Positions 15,385 through 23,257 of a DNA stretch of 25,640 bases are shown here, one piece after another. The position numbers were made by a program, and so were the translations under genes. A model generated the notes under the pieces. The model was not told the DNA's origin, made no database searches, and saw nothing but the letters and a program-made list of their open reading frames with translations. Location: positions 1 through 25,640 of the forward strand of contig JAJFHW010000091.1 of assembly GCA_021775385.1 (NCBI GenBank), written 5' to 3'. Each line of letters begins with the position of its first letter. The stretch's first letter is position 1. This DNA comes from Hyphomicrobiales bacterium (GTDB lineage Bacteria > Pseudomonadota > Alphaproteobacteria > Rhizobiales > HXMU1428-3).

Positions 15385-15465
15385 ACAAGACAAATTAACT
15401 AGAGTGACGACTAACGAGTATCGCCTAAATTGGAATCAGCTTTAGGAAAAGCCCGGTTACCGCGA

Positions 15466-15490
15466 CGGTTGCTAGTGAGCAACCCGAAGG
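15466..15490 (+). repeat. Hairpin-GAAGG repeat, copy A (trkA-trkH gap)
   Basis: CGGTTGCT, loop AGTG, AGCAACC, then CGAAGG, 25 nt. The stem GGTTGCT/AGCAACC is a perfect seven pairs. It matches copy C at 22113 at 21 of 25 positions, and all four differences are transitions. It lies 40 nt before trkH and is not its ribosome-binding site. No T-tract follows, so it is not an intrinsic terminator. Confidence 0.75.
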
Positions 15491-15530
15491 AGCTCTAAAA
15501 AGATTCACATAAAGATTTCATGGATAACAA

Positions 15531-17003
15531 ATGAACGGCCATGCACTAGGATATATATATGGATGGGGGTTAGCGCTCTTCTCATTAACAGTAATCCCCC
15601 CTCTCATCATTGCTCTTGCTAATAATGAAGCTTTGCCATTGGCTGCCTTTCTAGTCACAGGGCTGGCGTCCGGTTTCTTTGGGGGCTCGCTCATAATTGC
15701 TCTAAAAGGGCGCGAGATTGAAGTCTCCCGGCGCGAAAAAATTGTTTTGGTGATTGGGCTTTGGGCAACCTTTTGCCTCATAAGCGCCATCCCTTTTGAA
15801 GCATCAAACGCAATTCCAAGCCGATTAAACGCGATATTCGAAGCAACTTCAGGACTCACCACAACAGGGGCAACACTCATTGAGCAAATATCAAATTTGC
15901 CTCAATCCATTATCTATTGGCGTGCTCAACTACAGTGGGTCGGTGGCTTCATGACCCTATTCACAATCACCTACGCTTTGGTCCGCTTCATGGGCGCAGA
16001 ACGCGTCACAAAAGAAATATATAAAACCACAAGTTCAGTAAATGATGAAAAGTTACATCTTTTCACAACTCTAAGATTGATCATACCTGTCTATTTAGGG
16101 TTGAGCGTTGCATTGCTTTTCGCTCTTCTCATTAGTGGCATTCCCATTTTCGATGCCATTTGTCTAACTCTCTCTACAGTTTCAACTGGTGGCTTTATGC
16201 CAAGAGACGGGGCTCTATCCACCTATGGTAATATAAATATCTTATGGATATTGAGTATCTTTATGTTCCTTGGGAGTGTTAGCATTCTATGGGTGAGTTA
16301 CTTCATCAAACAGGAATGGCTAAACTTAAAAAAATTCACGGAACCTCTTTGGATTGGAGGCGCTATATTAACTCTTACCCTTGTAATGTTGTCTTTAAAA
16401 TTAACATTCGATGGCGGGCGAGAGTTTTTAGCTGTAAACAAAGAAGCCGCAACAGCACTTATGAATGCTGTATCTTTAATTTCAACGACGGGTTTTGCAG
16501 CCAGCACATATAGTTTTGAACACATCTCACCAGCAATAGCCATCATCTTAATGTTGATCGGTGGTGGCGTACTCTCAACAGCAGGTGGTGTTAAATTCAC
16601 ACGCATTTTAATGATGTTCCGCCAGTCAAATAGAGAGTTACGCTCCCTAATATACCCTCATGAAGTACGCCCACTTTATTTAAGCAATGAAAATAAAGAT
16701 CACCTGTTTATCTCAACAGTTTGGGTCACCTTTGGATTAACTGTATTGGTCATATCACTTTTAGCTGCGATCCTGTCATTCCATGGTATGGGTCTAGAAG
16801 AAGCCTTCTTTGCTGCGACCGGTATAATATCAAATTGCGGTGCATGCTATCAACAAATGTCATTTGTTCATCTGAATGAGACCATACCAATTATAGAGTT
16901 AGCAAAAACAGCTAAAATAGCCATGATTATTGGAATGATAATAGGGCGGCTAGAAATACTAATCATCATAAGTCTCTTTAACATATCATTCTGGAGACAT
17001 TGA
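15531..17003 (+). CDS. trkH: Trk potassium uptake membrane subunit TrkH
   Basis: Inner-membrane K+ translocating subunit, 490 residues, built of four membrane-pore-membrane repeats. The four pore loops are visible: TSGLTTTGAT (107-116), TVSTGGFMPRDG (about 216-227), LISTTGFAAS (about 317-326) and ATGIISNCGACY (about 429-440). The first three have the canonical filter glycine. In the fourth, the usual N-x-G-P reads N-C-G-A, giving two cysteines near the pore, a variation worth noting. The ribosome-binding site is weak. The gene is separated from trkA by 146 bp carrying the hairpin repeat, and from dat by 286 bp carrying further copies. Confidence 0.95.
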   Translation: MNGHALGYIYGWGLALFSLTVIPPLIIALANNEALPLAAFLVTGLASGFFGGSLIIALKGREIEVSRREKIVLVIGLWATFCLISAIPFEASNAIPSRLNAIFEATSGLTTTGATLIEQISNLPQSIIYWRAQLQWVGGFMTLFTITYALVRFMGAERVTKEIYKTTSSVNDEKLHLFTTLRLIIPVYLGLSVALLFALLISGIPIFDAICLTLSTVSTGGFMPRDGALSTYGNINILWILSIFMFLGSVSILWVSYFIKQEWLNLKKFTEPLWIGGAILTLTLVMLSLKLTFDGGREFLAVNKEAATALMNAVSLISTTGFAASTYSFEHISPAIAIILMLIGGGVLSTAGGVKFTRILMMFRQSNRELRSLIYPHEVRPLYLSNENKDHLFISTVWVTFGLTVLVISLLAAILSFHGMGLEEAFFAATGIISNCGACYQQMSFVHLNETIPIIELAKTAKIAMIIGMIIGRLEILIIISLFNISFWRH

Positions 17004-17158
17004 TCTATACGGATGCTTGTGAGTTAATAAAAATACACTTAAAAATGACAGTTAATATAAGAGAACAATACGAAGAAGGTGTTCAGGCCTTTTTGAGATG
17101 CAGGAAATGCAGCCAGGAGCATCCAGCGCCTAGCGTTACCCTCTGGAGACCTCTAGGG

Positions 17159-17183
17159 CGGTTGCGTAGCACACCAACTGAAG
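17159..17183 (+). repeat. Hairpin-GAAGG repeat, copy B0 (trkH-dat gap)
   Basis: CGGTTGC, loop region, CCAAC, then TGAAG. The inner stem is GGTTG/CAACT with a G-U pair. GGGC (17156-17159) can pair with GTCC (17183-17186) as an outer stem. The CGGTTGC start and the CAACTGAAG end are shared with the copy 36 bp downstream. Confidence 0.55.
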
Positions 17184-17218
17184 TCCAACAAAACGAATAG
17201 CCGTGAGAGTGTCAGAGA

Positions 17219-17279
17219 CGGTTGCTGGACCGGTTTCTAGTGGGAAAAAAGAAGGTCCATTAAAAAGTGCAACTGAAGG
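17219..17279 (+). repeat. Nested hairpin-GAAGG repeats, copies B-outer and B-inner
   Basis: The outer copy is split: left half CGGTTGCT (17219-17226) and right half GTGCAACTGAAGG (17267-17279), with GGTTGC pairing to GCAACT. Its loop contains a second copy at 17231-17255, beginning CGGTTTCTAGTGGG and ending in GAAGG, enclosed by a perfect GGACC/GGTCC stem (17227-17231, 17254-17258). The final GAAGG is the Shine-Dalgarno of dat, nine bases before its ATG. Confidence 0.65.
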
Positions 17280-17289
17280 AACAATAAGA

Positions 17290-18153
17290 ATGAGTAGAAC
17301 AATTTACGTAAATGGGTGCTATCAGCCTTATAACAATGCACTGCTCCACGTAGAAGACAGAGCAACCCTTTTCGCAGACGCCGTTTATGAAGTCGTTGAG
17401 ATAAAAGCCGGTAATCTCGTTGACCAAGATGCCCATTTAGAAAGGCTAGAACGTTCCTTAAACGAAATAAAATTGGTAACAGATTTTGCACTCCATACAA
17501 TTCCTTTCATAATTAGAGAAACCATTCGCCGAAACAGAGTGAAAAACGGCTATGTATATATCCAAGTATCTAGAGGTTGCGCTCAAAGAGATTTCGTTTT
17601 CCCAAAGACAAATGAAACACCGGCAACTCTTATCATCTTTGCTCGGTCCAAAAACCCACTAAAATTGGATAAAAAATCTAAGAAAGGTATTAAGGTCATT
17701 ACTCACCCCGACCTGAGGTGGAAACGACCTGACATCAAAACAACAGGCCTACTTGCAAGTGTACTAGCAAGGCAAACAGCCATTGAACAAGGGGCTGAAG
17801 AAGCATGGCTTTATAATAAAGATAAAATCATCACTGAAGGGGCTGCTAGCAACGCATGGATTGTAAACAATCAAAATGAGCTAATCACTCATCCTGCCAA
17901 TCAATCCATTTTAAAAGGAATAACACGTGAAGGGGTAATGCAGCTCGCAAAAGAGTTAAACCTTAAATTTAGTGAAAGACCATTCTCAATAGAAGAGGCC
18001 AAAGAGGCAAAAGAAGCTTTTATCACTGCAGCAACTAATTTAGTAATGCCTGTTACCCAAATTGACGAAAAAACTGTGAATGATGGCAAATCAGGGCCAA
18101 TTTCTTTAAAATTAAGAGAAATATTTCATGAATTTGCCCAAATATCCCATTAA
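17290..18153 (+). CDS. dat: D-amino acid aminotransferase (class IV PLP)
   Basis: Fold-type IV PLP enzyme exchanging amino groups between D-amino acids such as D-alanine and 2-oxo acids. The 287 residues match the family length (about 283). Landmarks are VEDRATLFADAVYEVVE near the N-terminus, the PLP lysine Lys150 in RWKRPDIKTTGLLA, and ITEGAASNAWIV with the glutamate that contacts the PLP ring. The open frame continues upstream to 17203, but ATG 17290 (MSRTIYVNG) is the homologous start and has GAAGGA nine bases upstream; the extension is repeat DNA. In this neighbourhood dat commonly lies between trkA/trkH and hfq. A branched-chain aminotransferase is the main alternative, less likely from the PDIK and EGAASN motifs. 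Confidence 0.92.
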   Translation: MSRTIYVNGCYQPYNNALLHVEDRATLFADAVYEVVEIKAGNLVDQDAHLERLERSLNEIKLVTDFALHTIPFIIRETIRRNRVKNGYVYIQVSRGCAQRDFVFPKTNETPATLIIFARSKNPLKLDKKSKKGIKVITHPDLRWKRPDIKTTGLLASVLARQTAIEQGAEEAWLYNKDKIITEGAASNAWIVNNQNELITHPANQSILKGITREGVMQLAKELNLKFSERPFSIEEAKEAKEAFITAATNLVMPVTQIDEKTVNDGKSGPISLKLREIFHEFAQISH

Positions 18154-18171
18154 GCAATGTTAAATCCACAG

Positions 18172-18220
18172 AAAAAATACTGAAAAAGACTGAAAAAACA
18201 CTGGAAAATACGGAAAAAAA
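18172..18220. promoter_or_regulatory. Phased A-tracts, predicted bent DNA
   Basis: Five runs of four to seven A have centres near 18174.5, 18185, 18195.5, 18206.5 and 18217, that is 10.5-11 bp apart, one helical turn each. The units read roughly ACTGAAAAA. In-phase A-tracts bend DNA. The site is 19 bp after dat and about 120-165 bp upstream of the hfq promoter candidate. Confidence 0.7.
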
Positions 18221-18338
18221 CTGTGAGGGCTTTTAAAATCTCTAACATCAGAGATACTAAGTAAATGATTTGAATATAAGTTTAAAATATAGAATCTAAA
18301 GAAATGAGTTTAAATAAAAGTAGTTTGAATAATAAAAA

Positions 18339-18368
18339 TGGACAAAGAAATTTAAATCAAATTAATAT
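18339..18368 (+). promoter_or_regulatory. Candidate sigma-70-type promoter for hfq
   Basis: TGGACA (18339-18344) is followed by 17-18 bp and TTAATA/TAATAT (18362-18368). Initiation near 18375 would give a leader of about 40 nt. The -35 matches five of six consensus bases. Confidence 0.45.
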
Positions 18369-18415
18369 TCTGTGTTCCTAAAGTAATTGCCACAACAAAA
18401 TAACGGAAAAAAAAC

Positions 18416-18673
18416 ATGGCTAACGATAAAAATCAAAATCTACAGGACGCATTCTTAAATAATGTGAGAAAAAGCAAAACTCCACTAACAATTTTCTTGG
18501 TGAATGGAATAAAACTACAAGGTGTGGTCACATGGTTTGATAATTTTTGTGTACTCTTACGCAGAGATGGTCATTCTCAATTGGTATATAAACATGCCAT
18601 TTCAACCATAATGCCAGGCCAGCCTGTTCAGATGTTTGAAGGCGAACCAGCAGCCGACGAAACAAACGAATAA
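18416..18673 (+). CDS. hfq: RNA chaperone Hfq
   Basis: Sm-like hexameric RNA chaperone that pairs small RNAs with mRNAs. The 85 residues include the Sm1 motif ([21 protein letters not shown]) and Sm2 motif ending in YKHAISTI, preceded by the conserved [10 protein letters not shown] proximal-face helix. The distal tail is short and acidic ([10 protein letters not shown]). GGA lies eight bases before ATG. A promoter candidate and phased A-tracts lie upstream and a weak terminator lies downstream, so it may be transcribed on its own as well as with dat. Confidence 0.97.
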
Positions 18674-18994
18674 CAGCTTCGTCGCATCTAAATGGCCATA
18701 AAGAAAATTATTCAGGCCCATTTCTCAAGTCTAAGACTTAAGGTAAAAAACTTAAGTTTTTTGGACAAAGGAATTCATTTGGTCATAGGTCAAACATATG
18801 CTTAGATTTGATCAGTACAAATGCTACTTAAAATTTTCTTCGAACAAAACAAAAAACGGTAGTTAACTACCTTAAAAGCGAGCAATAAAATAACCAGCAC
18901 AAGAGAGAACAATAGTCCCAAATCTAAAAAGAAGGGATCAAAAAACCAAACGGTTCAATTTCAAATAGAAGACGAACCAGCTGTACAAACAACG
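18674..18994. other. hfq-hflX gap, includes probable hflX N-terminal codons
   Basis: 321 bp. It holds the hfq terminator and then an AT-rich stretch. The hflX frame is open upstream from 18863, just after a TAG at 18860, but contains no ATG, GTG or TTG before 18995. In the same frame an ATG at 18821 runs 13 codons to that TAG. AGAAGGGA at 18930-18937 resembles a ribosome-binding site without an in-frame standard start after it. Confidence 0.6.
18736..18762 (+). terminator. Weak intrinsic terminator after hfq
   Basis: ACTTAAG (18736-18742) pairs with CTTAAGT (18751-18757), with an A-rich 8-nt loop and five T after the stem. The stem is AT-rich, so termination may be partial. Confidence 0.45.
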
Positions 18995-20314
18995 TTGCTC
19001 GCCCCTTACGATAACAAAAAATCCAAATCTAAATCGGCTGAACTTGACCCAAGGCCCATTGATGATCGGATGGAAGAAGCGCTGGGTCTGGCGCAAGCTA
19101 TTGACCTTGAAGTCAATGCATCTATTGCAGTCCCTTTGGACACGATCCGCTCAGCAACTTTGTTTGGCCAAGGAAAGGTCGAAGAATTAAAAGAAATCAT
19201 CCACGACAATCACTCTGAACTTGTTGTTGTTGATCATAGCCTCAGCCCTGGACAACAACGAAACTTGGAAAACGAGTGGGATGTAAAAATCCTAGATCGT
19301 ACAGGATTAATCCTCGAAATCTTCGGCCGCCGTGCAGCCACAAGGGAAGGGCGGCTTCAAGTAGATCTTGCCCACCTCAACTACCAAAAATCTCGACTTG
19401 TTCGCTCCTGGACTCACCTTGAACGGCAAAGAGGCGGCCAAGGCTTTATGGGCGGGCCAGGCGAAACTCAGTTAGAAGCAGATAAACGCCAGCTTCAAAC
19501 CAGAATTATGAGCCTGACAAAAGACCTAGAAAAGGTCAAAAAAACCAGGGACTTACACCGTAAAAAACGCAAACAAATCCCATACCCCATCATTGCACTC
19601 GTGGGATACACAAACGCCGGAAAATCAACACTCTTTAACCATTTAACCGGCGCAGATGTCATGGCTAAAGATCAACTCTTTGCCACACTAGACCCAACCA
19701 TGCGCTCAATCCTTTTGCCATCCGGCGCTAAAGTCATTATGTCGGACACTGTGGGTTTTGTTTCAAACCTACCAACACAGCTTGTCGCCGCCTTTAGAGC
19801 AACCTTGGAAGAAGTGCTAGAAGCCAACATCATTCTTCACGTGCAAGATGCGTCCAACCCAAGCAGAGACCAACAACGCAGTGACGTCATCAAAATTCTA
19901 AAAGAATTGGGAATTAAAGAAGAAGAAGAAAGCGCACCTATTTTTGAAGTGTGGAATAAAATCGATCAAATTCCTCAAATAGATGAGAAACCTGATGATA
20001 GTTTCATAGAAGAAACGCCAATTCTAACAGACACGAACAACGATGAAACAACGCCGTTTCTGATCTCAGCCAAAACAGGCGAGGGGATTGACCAACTTCT
20101 AAACGCTTTGGATAAACAACTAGAAGAACATGAAATCAACTTAGATCTAAAACTAAAAGTCAACGAAGGGATGATCGTCAGTTGGCTCTATGAAAATGGG
20201 CAAGTCACTCAAGGTGATACAGACAATTCGGGAGAAACAGAATATTCAGTTACACTCCCTAAACGCCTGGCCGGTCGGTTAGAGAAGATGCTTACGCCGG
20301 CAAGAGAACAATAG
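18995..20314 (+). CDS. hflX: GTPase HflX
   Basis: Ribosome-associated GTPase that splits stalled or stressed ribosomes. Counting from TTG 18995, the N-terminal HflX domain runs to about residue 190, with TLFGQGKVEEL and the glycine-rich GGPGETQLE (153-161). The G domain has the P-loop GYTNAGKS (204-211), DTVGF and NKID. An acidic insertion (about 307-350) falls between the NKID box and the SAKTG motif. Homologues continue upstream through the first strand, matching TTLLAPY here, so translation probably begins before the TTG, yet no ordinary start codon exists there. Ends six bp from the convergent mazG stop, with no terminator between them. Confidence 0.93.
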   Translation: MLAPYDNKKSKSKSAELDPRPIDDRMEEALGLAQAIDLEVNASIAVPLDTIRSATLFGQGKVEELKEIIHDNHSELVVVDHSLSPGQQRNLENEWDVKILDRTGLILEIFGRRAATREGRLQVDLAHLNYQKSRLVRSWTHLERQRGGQGFMGGPGETQLEADKRQLQTRIMSLTKDLEKVKKTRDLHRKKRKQIPYPIIALVGYTNAGKSTLFNHLTGADVMAKDQLFATLDPTMRSILLPSGAKVIMSDTVGFVSNLPTQLVAAFRATLEEVLEANIILHVQDASNPSRDQQRSDVIKILKELGIKEEEESAPIFEVWNKIDQIPQIDEKPDDSFIEETPILTDTNNDETTPFLISAKTGEGIDQLLNALDKQLEEHEINLDLKLKVNEGMIVSWLYENGQVTQGDTDNSGETEYSVTLPKRLAGRLEKMLTPAREQ

Positions 20315-20320
20315 ACTTTG

Positions 20321-21214
20321 CTAATTCTTTGGCTCTAAAGTTTTTGCTTCATCCCAAAGTGCGTCCATCTCCTCAAGGCTCGCCTCATCAAATGAAACAC
20401 CGCGCGCATGAAGTTCTTTTTCAATATATGAAAATCGAGAACAAAACTTATTATTCGCATGACGACCTGCATGCTCTGGATCGATATTTAAATGCCGAGC
20501 TAAATTTGTGATGACAAATAATAAGTCACCAATTTCTTCAGTTAGTTTTTCTTGAGAATTTACAGAATAGCCTGCATCCGTCTTGTCCTTCTGTGCATCG
20601 TCAAAAGCCTCTCTGACCTCATTTAATTCTTCCTCAATTTTATCAAAAACAAACGATGCATCCGGCCAATCAAACCCAACTTTTGCAGCTTTGTTTTGTA
20701 ACTTCACCGCTCGGCTAAGTCCTGGCAATCCAACTGGCACATCATCTAGAATAGAGGAGGTGGCACCACTAATCTTATCTCCTTTCAAAGACTTTTCTTC
20801 AGCCTTAATCTGCTCCCACATACCCTTTATTTCCAAATCACTCTTAAGGTCATCATCACCAAAAACATGCGGGTGTCTACGAACTAACTTCTCGCAAATA
20901 GCTTGAATAACATCTTGAAACTTAAAGCTTTCCTCTTCTGAAGCCATCTGTGCGTAATAAACAACTTGAAAAAGCAAATCACCAAGCTCTTCGCACAAGT
21001 CCTGTCTTTCACCACGGTCAATCGCATCGATAACTTCATAAGCTTCTTCAATTGTATAAGGAGAGATCGACTTAAAATCTTGTTTCAAATCCCACGGGCA
21101 GCCACCATCAGGGTTACGTAATTGCGCCATAATCGCAAGCAGGTCATCAATAGAATAATCTTCTTTGATGAAAGATTGCTTTATCTCGTTTTTGTTCAGA
21201 TCCGTTTTAGTCAT
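20321..21214 (-). CDS. mazG: Nucleoside triphosphate pyrophosphohydrolase MazG
   Basis: Hydrolyses NTPs and dNTPs to the monophosphate and pyrophosphate, limiting aberrant nucleotides and affecting stringent control. The 297 residues contain two tandem MazG domains. The first has CPWDLKQ, the EEAYE helix (56-60) and EELGDLLFQ (about 75-83), the E-x-x-D metal site. The second has EEELNEVREA and EEIGDLLF. An N-terminal extension of about 20 residues precedes the usual start (YSIDDLLAIMAQLR), so a shorter start is possible. Conserved position next to hflX, but in opposite orientation. Confidence 0.95.
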   Translation of the reverse strand: MTKTDLNKNEIKQSFIKEDYSIDDLLAIMAQLRNPDGGCPWDLKQDFKSISPYTIEEAYEVIDAIDRGERQDLCEELGDLLFQVVYYAQMASEEESFKFQDVIQAICEKLVRRHPHVFGDDDLKSDLEIKGMWEQIKAEEKSLKGDKISGATSSILDDVPVGLPGLSRAVKLQNKAAKVGFDWPDASFVFDKIEEELNEVREAFDDAQKDKTDAGYSVNSQEKLTEEIGDLLFVITNLARHLNIDPEHAGRHANNKFCSRFSYIEKELHARGVSFDEASLEEMDALWDEAKTLEPKN

Positions 21215-21255
21215 ATCAATGAAAATCCTATAACAACTGAGTCAAAGAGTACTTA

Positions 21256-21298
21256 TAAAAACAAAAAAAGAGGACATTCCAAAAAGAATGTCCTCTTT
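21256..21298 (-). terminator. Strong intrinsic terminator after rplI
   Basis: AAAGAGGACATTC (21267-21279) pairs perfectly with GAATGTCCTCTTT (21286-21298), 13 pairs with a 6-nt loop. On the minus strand the stem is followed by TTTTTTTGTTTTT. It ends the rpsF-rpsR-rplI operon before mazG. Confidence 0.9.
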
Positions 21299-21372
21299 AT
21301 AAACAATTAGATCAAAAGCACCAAAATCCCATTAGTTAAAAAAGAATAAGTTAGTACATAATCTAGAACGCC

Positions 21373-22017
21373 TTACGCATCAGCGTCTTTGTCATCATCA
21401 TTAGAAGCCGCTTCGTTAGTTGCTTCTTCAGTAGCGTCTTCGTCAGATGCATCATCATCTTCAGTTGGCTCAGCACCTTCTTCAAACACATCTTCAGTTG
21501 AAAGAACTTCTTCTTCAGCTTCTTCAACTTCGATCGTTACATCTTCACCGCGTGCTTGACGTTCAGCTTCTTCTTCTGTACGCGCCACGTTGATGTTCAC
21601 ATTAACTTCAACTTCTGGGTGAAGACTTACAAGCACTTCATGTACGCCAAGAACCTTAATAGGACGGTTCAACAAGATCTGGTTACGATCAATTTGTATG
21701 CCATTTTCGCAAATCGTTTCAGCAATATCTCTTGAGCTAACTGAGCCATAAAGCTGACCTGTATCACCAGCTTGGCGAATAGCCGTGAAAGTTTCACCCG
21801 CAACTTTTTCGCCAACTTTGGTAGCTTCACCTTTAAGTTCAAGGTTACGCGCTTCAAGTTCTGCTCGTTGTGCATCAAAATGTGATTGGTTTTTTTCATT
21901 CGCACGAAGGGCTTTACCCTGTGGAAGTAGGAAGTTACGTGCAAAACCATCTTTAACAGTAACGGTCTCACCCATTTGGCCTAAGCGGCGAATACGTTCA
22001 AGAAGAATAACTTTCAT
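21373..22017 (-). CDS. rplI: Ribosomal protein bL9 with long acidic tail
   Basis: Large-subunit protein that binds 23S rRNA near the L1 stalk. Residues 1-147 match a complete L9: the N-terminal RNA-binding domain ([29 protein letters not shown]), the long connecting helix, and the C-terminal domain ([14 protein letters not shown] through [12 protein letters not shown]). About 65 further residues form an almost wholly acidic tail (Glu, Asp, Ala, Thr) that E. coli L9 (149 residues) lacks. Acidic tails on L9 are common in alphaproteobacteria. It is separated from rpsR by 293 bp of hairpin-rich DNA where relatives usually have a DUF2232 membrane protein gene. Confidence 0.97.
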
Positions 22018-22112
22018 AACAGTCTCTCAATTTAGCTCACTAATGAGCTTTTGTAAGTTTTTAATTTATAAAAGAGGGAGAACCGAATGAGAAAAAGAGG
22101 AGATATTCGCGC

Positions 22113-22137
22113 CGGTTGCTGGTGGGCAATCTGAAGG
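22113..22137 (+). repeat. Hairpin-GAAGG repeat, copy C (rplI-rpsR gap)
   Basis: CGGTTGCTGGTGGG, then CAATC, then TGAAGG; stem GGTTGC/GCAATC with one G-U pair, and GCC/GGC as a short outer stem. It lies antisense to the surrounding operon. It matches copy A at 21 of 25 positions. Confidence 0.75.
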
Positions 22138-22230
22138 CACAAAAGAGTCATCACTCTTTCATTCGCTGTCCCGCTTTCGCGGTTAGAGCTAACAATTCTG
22201 GATGCAAAATCCAGGAAAGTGGGCTCAACT

Positions 22231-22256
22231 AAACTTTTCTTTGAAAAGTTTTTTTT
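22231..22256 (+). terminator. Terminator-like hairpin facing against the operon
   Basis: AAACTTTTC (22231-22239), loop TTT, GAAAAGTTT (22243-22251), then five more T on the plus strand. On the minus strand, the direction of the ribosomal operon, no T-tract follows, so it would stop antisense transcription rather than the operon. Confidence 0.5.
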
Positions 22257-22257
22257 A

Positions 22258-22286
22258 ACTGACCCAACATAAAAAGTTGGGTCAGT
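22258..22286. other. Perfect 11-bp hairpin just after rpsR
   Basis: ACTGACCCAAC (22258-22268) pairs with GTTGGGTCAGT (22276-22286) around a 7-nt loop, 24 nt past the rpsR stop. No T-tract follows on either strand, so a role in mRNA stability or processing is more likely than termination. Confidence 0.6.
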
Positions 22287-22310
22287 AGATAATCTATCTA
22301 ATCAACTCGA

Positions 22311-22559
22311 TTAGCTAATTACATATGGGATCAAACCAAGAAAACGTGCGCGCTTAATCGCTTTAGCTAGTTCACGTTGTCTCTTAGCTGAAACAGCTGT
22401 AATTCGAGATGGAACAATTTTGCCGCGCTCTGAAATAAAGCGTTGTAGCAATTTCACATCTTTATAATCAATTTTCGGAGCGTTATCTCCTGAAAATGGG
22501 CAAGTTTTACGGCGACGATGAAAAGGACGACGCACTGGTAATTGAGCTATATTTTGCAT
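22311..22559 (-). CDS. rpsR: Ribosomal protein bS18
   Basis: Small-subunit protein of the central domain, binding with S6. 82 residues, normal length. Visible are the Arg-rich N-terminus ([15 protein letters not shown]), the [19 protein letters not shown] core and the C-terminal [20 protein letters not shown]. It starts three bases after the rpsF stop codon (TAA GAG ATG), so the pair is translationally coupled. Confidence 0.98.
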
Positions 22560-22562
22560 CTC

Positions 22563-22976
22563 TTATGACCTTCCTCTGAAATCTTGACGGTCACCACGAT
22601 CACCGCGGTCGCCACGATCATCACCACGTCCACGAGGACGGCGATCATCACGATCGTTCTTGCGCATCATTGCTGATGGATTTTCATCATGTTCATCAAC
22701 ACGAATAGTCATAAAACGCAGCACATCTGTAGAAATGCTCATTTGACGCTCCATTTCAGCTATAGCAGCTGGTTCAGCATCAATGTTCAGCAATGTGTAG
22801 TGTGCTTTACGATTTTTCTTAATTTTGTAAGAAATCGGTTTAATACCCCAATATTCATTCTTGAGGATTTTACCGTTACCTTTTTCAAGGATCGTCTTTA
22901 ATTCTTCAATCAACGTATCAACTTGCGCTGTTGAAAGCTCCTGACGACCGAGGAGAACATGCTCATAAAGTGGCAT
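22563..22976 (-). CDS. rpsF: Ribosomal protein bS6 with Asp-Arg-Gly repeat tail
   Basis: Small-subunit protein that binds 16S rRNA together with S18. Residues 1-95 form the ferredoxin-like S6 fold ([47 protein letters not shown]). A tail of about 40 residues follows, rich in Asp, Arg and Gly and ending in tandem Asp-Arg-Gly triplets encoded by 9-nt units of the GATCGTGGT type (about 22585-22620). AAAGG is seven bases before the ATG. First gene of rpsF-rpsR-rplI. Confidence 0.97.
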
Positions 22977-23052
22977 GAAAGAGCCTTTCTATTTTAAATG
23001 ACATAAACTGATCCAATGCATAGCCTTCGACGAGCCTAGTGAAAGGCCCTCA

Positions 23053-23082
23053 GTGCGGATGCTTTGTGGGCATCTGAAGCAC
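23053..23082 (+). repeat. Hairpin-GAAGG repeat, copy D (rpsF leader)
   Basis: GTGC, then CGGATGC, loop TTTGTGG, GCATCTGAAG, closed by GCAC. It shares CGG-TGCT, GTGGGC and ATCTGAAG with copy C, allowing one gap each way. The outer stem GTGC/GCAC is perfect. It lies antisense to rpsF, about 77 nt upstream of its start. A ribosomal protein leader structure is an alternative reading of the same bases. Confidence 0.5.
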
Positions 23083-23257
23083 AATTAAAAAAGTCAAACT
23101 CGTATGGAGTGAAGACACCTAATAAGAAAACCTTAAAAGTTCAGCCTTCAACTGAATCAATCTAAAAAAAGCTATATATGAGAAAAAAAGCAAAAAAGCA
23201 AAGGAAATATTGTGCAAAATAGTTTGTACCAAGCAATGTTTTGGCGGGATTTCACCG

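Follow-up and report, generated by a model that had tools for sequence, protein, structure and literature searches.

Well-studied palindromic repeats of bacteria, such as the repetitive extragenic palindromic (REP) sequences, are tied to REP-associated tyrosine transposases (RAYTs). Insertion sequences of the IS1397 type insert into the loop of REP palindromes, and Bru-RS and RIME of Rhizobiales are intergenic palindromic repeats of about 100 nt. REPs of the CGTC super-family have a CGTC tag, a stem of 8–9 bp, a loop of 4–5 nt and a CCA tail and occur mostly as inverted dimers; their families are mostly alphaproteobacterial and without a dedicated transposase (PMC3733652). Here we analysed a stretch of 25,640 nt from a Hyphomicrobiales bacterium (assembly GCA_021775385.1, contig JAJFHW010000091.1, positions 1 to 25,640), hereafter the window, which contains a family of short hairpins that we call SMALL and one degenerate copy of a second structured repeat family, BIG; a third family, MID, occurs outside the window. 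Comparing sequences, we see dispersed, mostly intergenic copies, a compensating outer stem, presence differences between species, nesting in hairpin loops and a single strand per contig. We consider it probable, though not strongly so, that both SMALL and BIG are palindromic mobile elements, non-autonomous and without coding function, which spread via single-stranded DNA at replication forks and favour hairpin loops.

The SMALL unit is about 39 nt long and consists of a variable arm of 3–5 nt, GGTTGC, the loop TNGTGG, GCAACC, a TGAA bulge, an arm complementary to the first one and the tail CACTAAAA. The inner stem has 6 bp, the outer stem about 4 bp and the loop 6 nt. The sequence-only reading had placed hairpin copies at 15466, 17159, 17219-17279, 22113 and 23056, and they are present at all these positions. 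Its comparison of the copies at 15466 and 22113, which are identical at 21 of 25 positions and differ by four transitions, was reproduced by reading the sequence. A covariance model (R2) was built from an alignment (A2) of 40 SMALL copies from other contigs of the same genome, with no window copy included. In the window it found four clear copies and a weak fifth one (E 0.0063), the next match having an E of 0.056. All window copies lie on the plus strand. The best one (22106..22153, E 8e-14) is situated between rpsR and rplI, antisense to that minus-strand operon. The copy in the trkA/trkH interval (15459..15506, E 1.4e-12) has the outer arms GCGAC/GGAGC with no Watson-Crick pairs in mid-arm, and the copy between rpsF and fabD (23049..23096, E 8.6e-10) is of a GGATGC subtype. 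The fourth (17224..17271, E 3.1e-7), of a GGTTTC subtype with a partly degenerate inner stem, sits in the loop of an outer SMALL copy (17219..17279), which the model did not find and which we read from CGGTTGCT ... GTGCAACTGAAGG flanking the inner one. A nested pair resembling this one also precedes dat in another genome of the genus (G002). The weak fifth match (17152..17200) is a remnant which the BIG alignment places inside the P5 hairpin of a degenerate BIG copy in the trkH/dat interval (17069..17217, plus strand; model R1 E 1.5e-6 for 17069-17215).

The draft genome of the bacterium itself (G000; 2.88 Mb, 400 contigs, 79% complete) has 100 matches to the SMALL pattern at up to three mismatches, 55 forward and 45 reverse, and none to the pattern read in reverse. 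The covariation score of alignment A2 was 0.342 against 0.103 after shuffling, a value reached by none of the 500 shuffles. The outer stems, which had been noted to differ between copies and still be complementary, were also mostly paired in a larger set: the three variable arm positions were paired in 67, 67 and 76 of 91 copies, where column composition would give 34.8, 33.0 and 36.3. In 12 of these 91 copies, including the one at 15459-15506, arms of the GCGAC/GGAGC class oppose A to G and G to A at two positions, which suggests tandem G.A pairing. Searching more widely with a covariance model, as had been proposed, brought further copies in the own and same-genus genomes together with a covarying outer stem.

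Many SMALL copies lie near the sequence AATAGCCGTGAGAG, which turned out to be the 3′ part of the larger element BIG. BIG has a length of about 122 nt, with uninterrupted copies ranging from about 117 to 130 nt, and is composed of CGAAGAAGGAG, hairpin P2, GGACATG, hairpins P3 and P4, CTCG-NA-GGC around hairpin P5, and the closing GCC-G-TGAG. Of the 31 pairs, 17 had changes on both sides among 22 copies free of long inserts, and this set scored 0.432 for covariation against 0.166 for shuffled alignments (0 of 500 shuffles). The third family, MID, is about 53 nt long (GATCAGCCCGAGCGGAGC..GCACGGATAAGCTGATC). It is found mostly in P4 loops of BIG, occupying this loop in 7 of 104 BIG matches, and also free-standing in arrays. 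A regular expression recovered three MID copies in G000 loci, four in a sample of G002 and none in the window, some of them outside BIG. Copies of MID lie at L211:9791, L219:12657 and L221:14762 in G002 and at L036:3437 and L042:3670 in G000.

Twenty 20-kb stretches of G002 (400 kb) were chosen without regard to matches and searched at E 1e-3. They hold 70 SMALL and 28 BIG copies, which extrapolates to about 610 and 245 per 3.5 Mb. The hairpins had been described as lying outside genes, and this is mostly so: five of 66 placeable SMALL copies fall within an open reading frame of at least 100 aa, four further copies at stretch edges being left out. No named family had been recognised either, and Rfam agrees, with no match at gathering score in the window and none credible in six further loci with SMALL or BIG, where no match reached the gathering score and the weak ones are terminator-like hairpins.

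SMALL copies are found in hairpin loops of both BIG and SMALL. BIG takes up 3.8 of the 400 kb of the G002 sample and contains 10 of its 70 SMALL copies. When 104 BIG matches were aligned to the model, all 46 inserts of at least 18 nt fell at four positions, namely the loops of P2 (4), P3 (5), P4 (11) and P5 (26); at least one copy is counted twice here (overlap of L011 and L051), and the source loci were mostly chosen for holding SMALL or BIG. One of the five P3 inserts is not SMALL. Since alignment to the model favours loops by its method, we repeated the placement from sequence only, where 25 of 37 long BIG copies and 218 of 300 random control insertions could be placed. Eight of the 25 inserts, compared with 10 of the 218 controls, were in the P5 loop, the only loop with a clear excess. 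Several of the P5 composites have no 3′ arm and may be related by descent. The BIG orthologous between trkH and dat, compared by eye, has only its P3 loop filled in G003 (by SMALL), and in G002 the loops of P2 (reversed SMALL), P4 (MID) and P5; G004 and G007 have no BIG at this place. Closing stems around SMALL copies outside arrays were seen in 12 of 76 cases, with a mean of 2.9 and a maximum of 7 in 50 shuffles, and this excess arises largely because those copies lie within another SMALL. SMALL also forms direct arrays with a period of about 36–41 nt. We discounted CRISPR by eye, as the units nest and the DNA between units of the arrays is short and itself repeated.

The elements keep almost strictly to one strand of each contig. 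In the G002 sample, the majority strand of the contig holds 67 of 70 SMALL and 26 of 28 BIG copies (SMALL on C5 being a tie of two), and two of the three SMALL exceptions sit inside the two inverted BIG copies. Among the best matches listed for each genome, SMALL was on one strand per contig in 39 of 39 cases in G003, 35 of 35 in G002 and 14 of 14 in G007, and BIG in 54 of 55 in G002 and 41 of 42 in G003. Restricted to contigs with at least two listed matches, the figures are 35/35, 31/31 and 11/11 for SMALL and 51/52 and 36/37 for BIG. Pattern matches of SMALL in G003 gave 51 of 53 on the majority strand, and the matches listed in the survey of the order add single exceptions in G003 and G004. 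The majority strands of BIG and SMALL coincide on 9 of 9 contigs in G002 and 12 of 12 in G003.

The usual rules for skew and rRNA orientation relate the strand to the direction of replication. On the sense strand of the elements, third-position GC skew was negative at all 18 scorable G002 loci; of the twenty stretches, L209 holds no element and L220 is mixed with a skew near zero. In the window, third-position skew of the plus strand is negative whichever way the genes run. On contig C1 of G002 the rRNA operon is on the minus strand and the elements are on the plus strand. Given the sign of the skew and the opposite rRNA operon, the sense strand is therefore the lagging strand, if the usual rules hold. 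Gene direction does not explain the orientation, as on contig C2 of G002 73% of the coding length is on the minus strand and every element is on the plus strand. Arrangements of the neighbouring genes (++, -+, +-, --) are mixed, with 24, 14, 12 and 11 cases for SMALL and 8, 4, 9 and 7 for BIG in the G002 sample. The sequence-only reading had left a choice between an element family and a recurrent structured RNA. The many dispersed, mostly intergenic copies and the compensatory outer-stem changes within the genus give the former good support, and an RNA regulating genes is disfavoured because the orientation tracks the replicon rather than the genes on either side. An ATG follows a few bases after the end of some BIG copies (L247, L170), though overall the orientation is independent of genes.

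Copies differ between species at corresponding places. About 37 nt of the copy at 22106-22153 are present in the window and absent from G002, L080 (G003) and L081 (G006), and the copy at 15459-15506 has no counterpart at the orthologous place in G002, G003 and G007. Between ntrB and ntrC there is an array of four SMALL units in G002 and of two in G003; in the window this interval has no unit. The copy at 23049-23096 is common to the window, L080 and L081; its outer arm is GTGC/GCAC in the window and GCGC/GCGC in L081, still paired.

The SMALL pattern is present in all eight genomes of the genus, the own one included (1 to 184 matches), and in none of 33 genomes of other families. The SMALL model, with the best 150 candidates per genome scored, gave 4 (G001) to at least 153 (G002) matches within the genus and none in six genomes outside it. 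Among 150 genomes from the order, five of the genus matched, and the 145 others contributed one weak match (G059, E 3.9e-6); here the best 40 candidates per genome were scored, and the figures are lower bounds. BIG reaches further. Its model gave 23 to at least 150 matches per genome within the genus (again among the best 150 candidates), and at E 1e-5 it matched at least 28 of the 150 genomes and at least 18 of 89 genera of the order, own genus included. With the best 23 candidates per genome scored, these are again lower bounds; in each of G018, G032, G065 and G068, 14 to 19 of the 23 matched. The 3′ module of BIG is legible in G008, G027 and G032. In 78 other named hflX loci, neither the BIG nor the SMALL model had a match at E 0.1. 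The diverged BIG copies of G018 are often inverted neighbouring pairs (C12:13764-13991, C54:56228-56457, C10:9392-9620 and C59:7024-7258, among others), which is unusual in the genus of the window; by analogy, this arrangement can be called similar to REP doublets forming hairpins (REPINs).

A search for a RAYT had also been proposed. Y1 transposases (PF01797) were found in one of the eight same-genus genomes, with two matches in G003, and none was found in G000 (79% complete), G001, G002 and G004-G007. No SMALL copy is near the two Y1 genes of G003. TnpB (PF07282) was found in none of the eight, and reverse transcriptase (PF00078, RVT_1) only in G004 and G006, with none in the high-copy G000, G002 and G003. 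G002 is 99% complete, has several hundred copies and contains no recognisable Y1, RVT_1 or TnpB, and the repeats therefore fall outside the definition of a RAYT-REP system. One SMALL copy in G006 (L230, 1074-1121) precedes the single RVT_1 gene of that genome (from about 1501) by about 380 nt, which may be by chance, given the density of copies. Nine loci of G027, G018, G008 and G009 were inspected by eye for an autonomous partner, and no transposase was recognised in them; their open reading frames were not searched against a library.

SMALL resembles the GTAG and CGTC super-families of REPs and the REPINs in being a short, high-copy extragenic palindrome (PMC3733652; see also PMC3116915, PMC2817692, PMC8266576), and the CGTC families come near it also in being mostly alphaproteobacterial and lacking a transposase of their own. 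Neither end of the SMALL consensus carries a GTAG tag on one strand or the other, in alignment A2 or in individual copies, and neither was a CGTC end tag found on SMALL. Unlike the GTAG and CGTC REPs, SMALL is without such a tag, its copies stand in direct arrays and nests and not in inverted dimers, the hairpin has the TGAA bulge and an outer arm free to vary, and the family keeps to one strand per contig. From the CGTC REP it differs also in the 6-bp inner stem, the outer stem of about 4 bp, the 6-nt loop and the tail CACTAAAA (PMC3733652). In contrast to REPINs and bacterial interspersed mosaic elements, its arrays are direct and not paired inverted copies. Judged by its ends, the form of its dimers and the transposase, SMALL is thus neither a GTAG nor a CGTC REP as these are defined (PMC3733652). 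IS200/IS605 and TnpA-REP systems differ in that they encode or need a Y1 transposase (PMC6006769), which is absent from seven of the eight same-genus genomes. Insertion sequences which target REP palindromes, e.g. IS1397 (see PMC1525189), are similar as mobile elements entering a palindromic repeat. They are, however, full insertion sequences with a transposase gene, whereas SMALL and BIG are both small and non-coding. BIG is comparable to Bru-RS and RIME in size and as an intergenic palindromic repeat. Mitochondrial GC clusters and repetitive hairpin elements are alike in that they are hairpins of mobile appearance, have no known enzyme and merge into composites of several hairpins (PMC4478555, PMC2800124); they differ in being mitochondrial, and the parts of these two sources consulted mention no replication orientation. 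The listings of literature searches showed no earlier account of these repeats, which is weak evidence, as sequences are not searchable there.

According to the explanation that we favour, single-stranded DNA at the replication fork would serve as the template of a new copy or as the strand to which it is joined, and this is proposed to fix the orientation of the copy. The preferred targets would be the loops of hairpins folded on that strand, a preference proposed to give rise to nesting. Direct arrays would then expand and contract locally, and some composites of BIG and SMALL would probably spread as a single unit. The joining enzyme in G002 would be something other than a recognisable Y1 transposase, RVT_1 reverse transcriptase or TnpB. 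Mobility, single-stranded intermediates and the involvement of an enzyme are what we infer from the compared sequences, and no mobility was observed. Several other points weigh against this explanation. The ends of SMALL are not sharply defined, and k-mer matching around 148 copies gave no consistent signal of target-site duplication, which along with terminal inverted repeats is characteristic of MITEs, the strongest cell (46 vs 17.6) being the palindromic arm itself. Cruder covariation measures were unremarkable against shuffles, both for SMALL (both-side-changed pairs 112/500, further pair types 143/500) and for further pair types in BIG (156/500). With respect to loops, the four SMALL among the P4-assigned inserts lie in the adjacent P1 strand and not in the loop, the other seven being MID, and the sequence-only placement put 14 of 25 inserts in any loop against 70 of 218 controls, a weaker preference. 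Composites that recur may stem from a common ancestor, in which case the counts exceed the number of independent insertions. Pairing of the flanks by duplex energy was near the null (34/148 vs 24.9) and is confounded by neighbouring copies. Total GC skew matches the orientation at only 12 of 18 loci; it is opposite or zero at L215, L219, L223, L224, L225 and L226, with mostly small values, and is partly shaped by gene direction. Finally, species could be compared only between genomes about 82–86% alike at best.

The main alternative is that the hairpins are polar chromosome motifs used by the host, like KOPS and Chi, whose orientation is selected. A replication, repair or segregation protein would bind the hairpin, and selection, not insertion, would maintain the orientation. 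The near-complete orientation by contig fits this, as does a constant core with a freely varying and still paired outer arm, expected of a bound hairpin, but copy number is very uneven within the genus (4 in G001, at least 147–153 in three others), copies nest in each other and in BIG, and presence varies between species at the same places, and we regard this reading as rather unlikely. A further reading is a structured RNA acting in cis on many genes as leader, terminator or riboswitch. Mixed gene arrangements, the antisense position of the copy at 22106 within its operon and the absence of a credible Rfam match make it very improbable despite RNA-like covariation and the BIG copies just before an ATG (L247, L170).

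Two further readings concern how the copies arose. REP-like elements could have been spread by a Y1 (RAYT-type) transposase since lost from most of these genomes, and both the strand preference, like that of IS200/IS605 (PMC6006769), and the Y1 matches in G003 (two) and G018 (one) would suit such a history. Seven of eight same-genus genomes without the enzyme, the high-copy G002 and G006 among them, Y1 genes of G003 without SMALL nearby and the missing GTAG or CGTC end tag render it improbable. Slippage of replication and template switching at hairpins, with no dedicated enzyme, would account for direct arrays, for the unit number varying at ntrB-ntrC between G002, G003 and the window, and for the lack of target duplication; a near-identical core across hundreds of dispersed copies calls for long-range copying, though, and we give slippage little credence. 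Going beyond the spread of SMALL and BIG via single-stranded DNA, it is possible, and we propose it tentatively, that they belong to an undescribed class of bacterial hairpin elements without transposase, with copying at the fork into hairpin loops, nested mosaics of at least three families (SMALL, MID and BIG) and marking of the chromosome by the direction of replication. Such a class would correspond in bacteria to the GC clusters of mitochondria, and BIG would be its order-wide member. An abundant, loop-nesting family that keeps almost to one strand per contig in G002, a genome in which no Y1, RVT_1 or TnpB was found, makes the spread of transposase-less palindromes testable within one genus, and BIG adds a structured repeat at the level of the order (at least 18 of 89 sampled genera) that is missing from Rfam.

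Two other features were noticed around rplI in the window. The sequence CATTCGCTGTCCCGCTTTCGCGGTTAG (22160-22190), in the rpsR-rplI gap of the minus-strand operon, is nearly constant in G002, G003 and G006 despite differing flanks and is perhaps an RNA element of the operon. Perfect or near-perfect inverted repeats at 22258-22288 (ACTGACCCAAC..GTTGGGTCAGT) and 21269-21300 (AGAGGACATTC..GAATGTCCTCT) look like intrinsic terminators.

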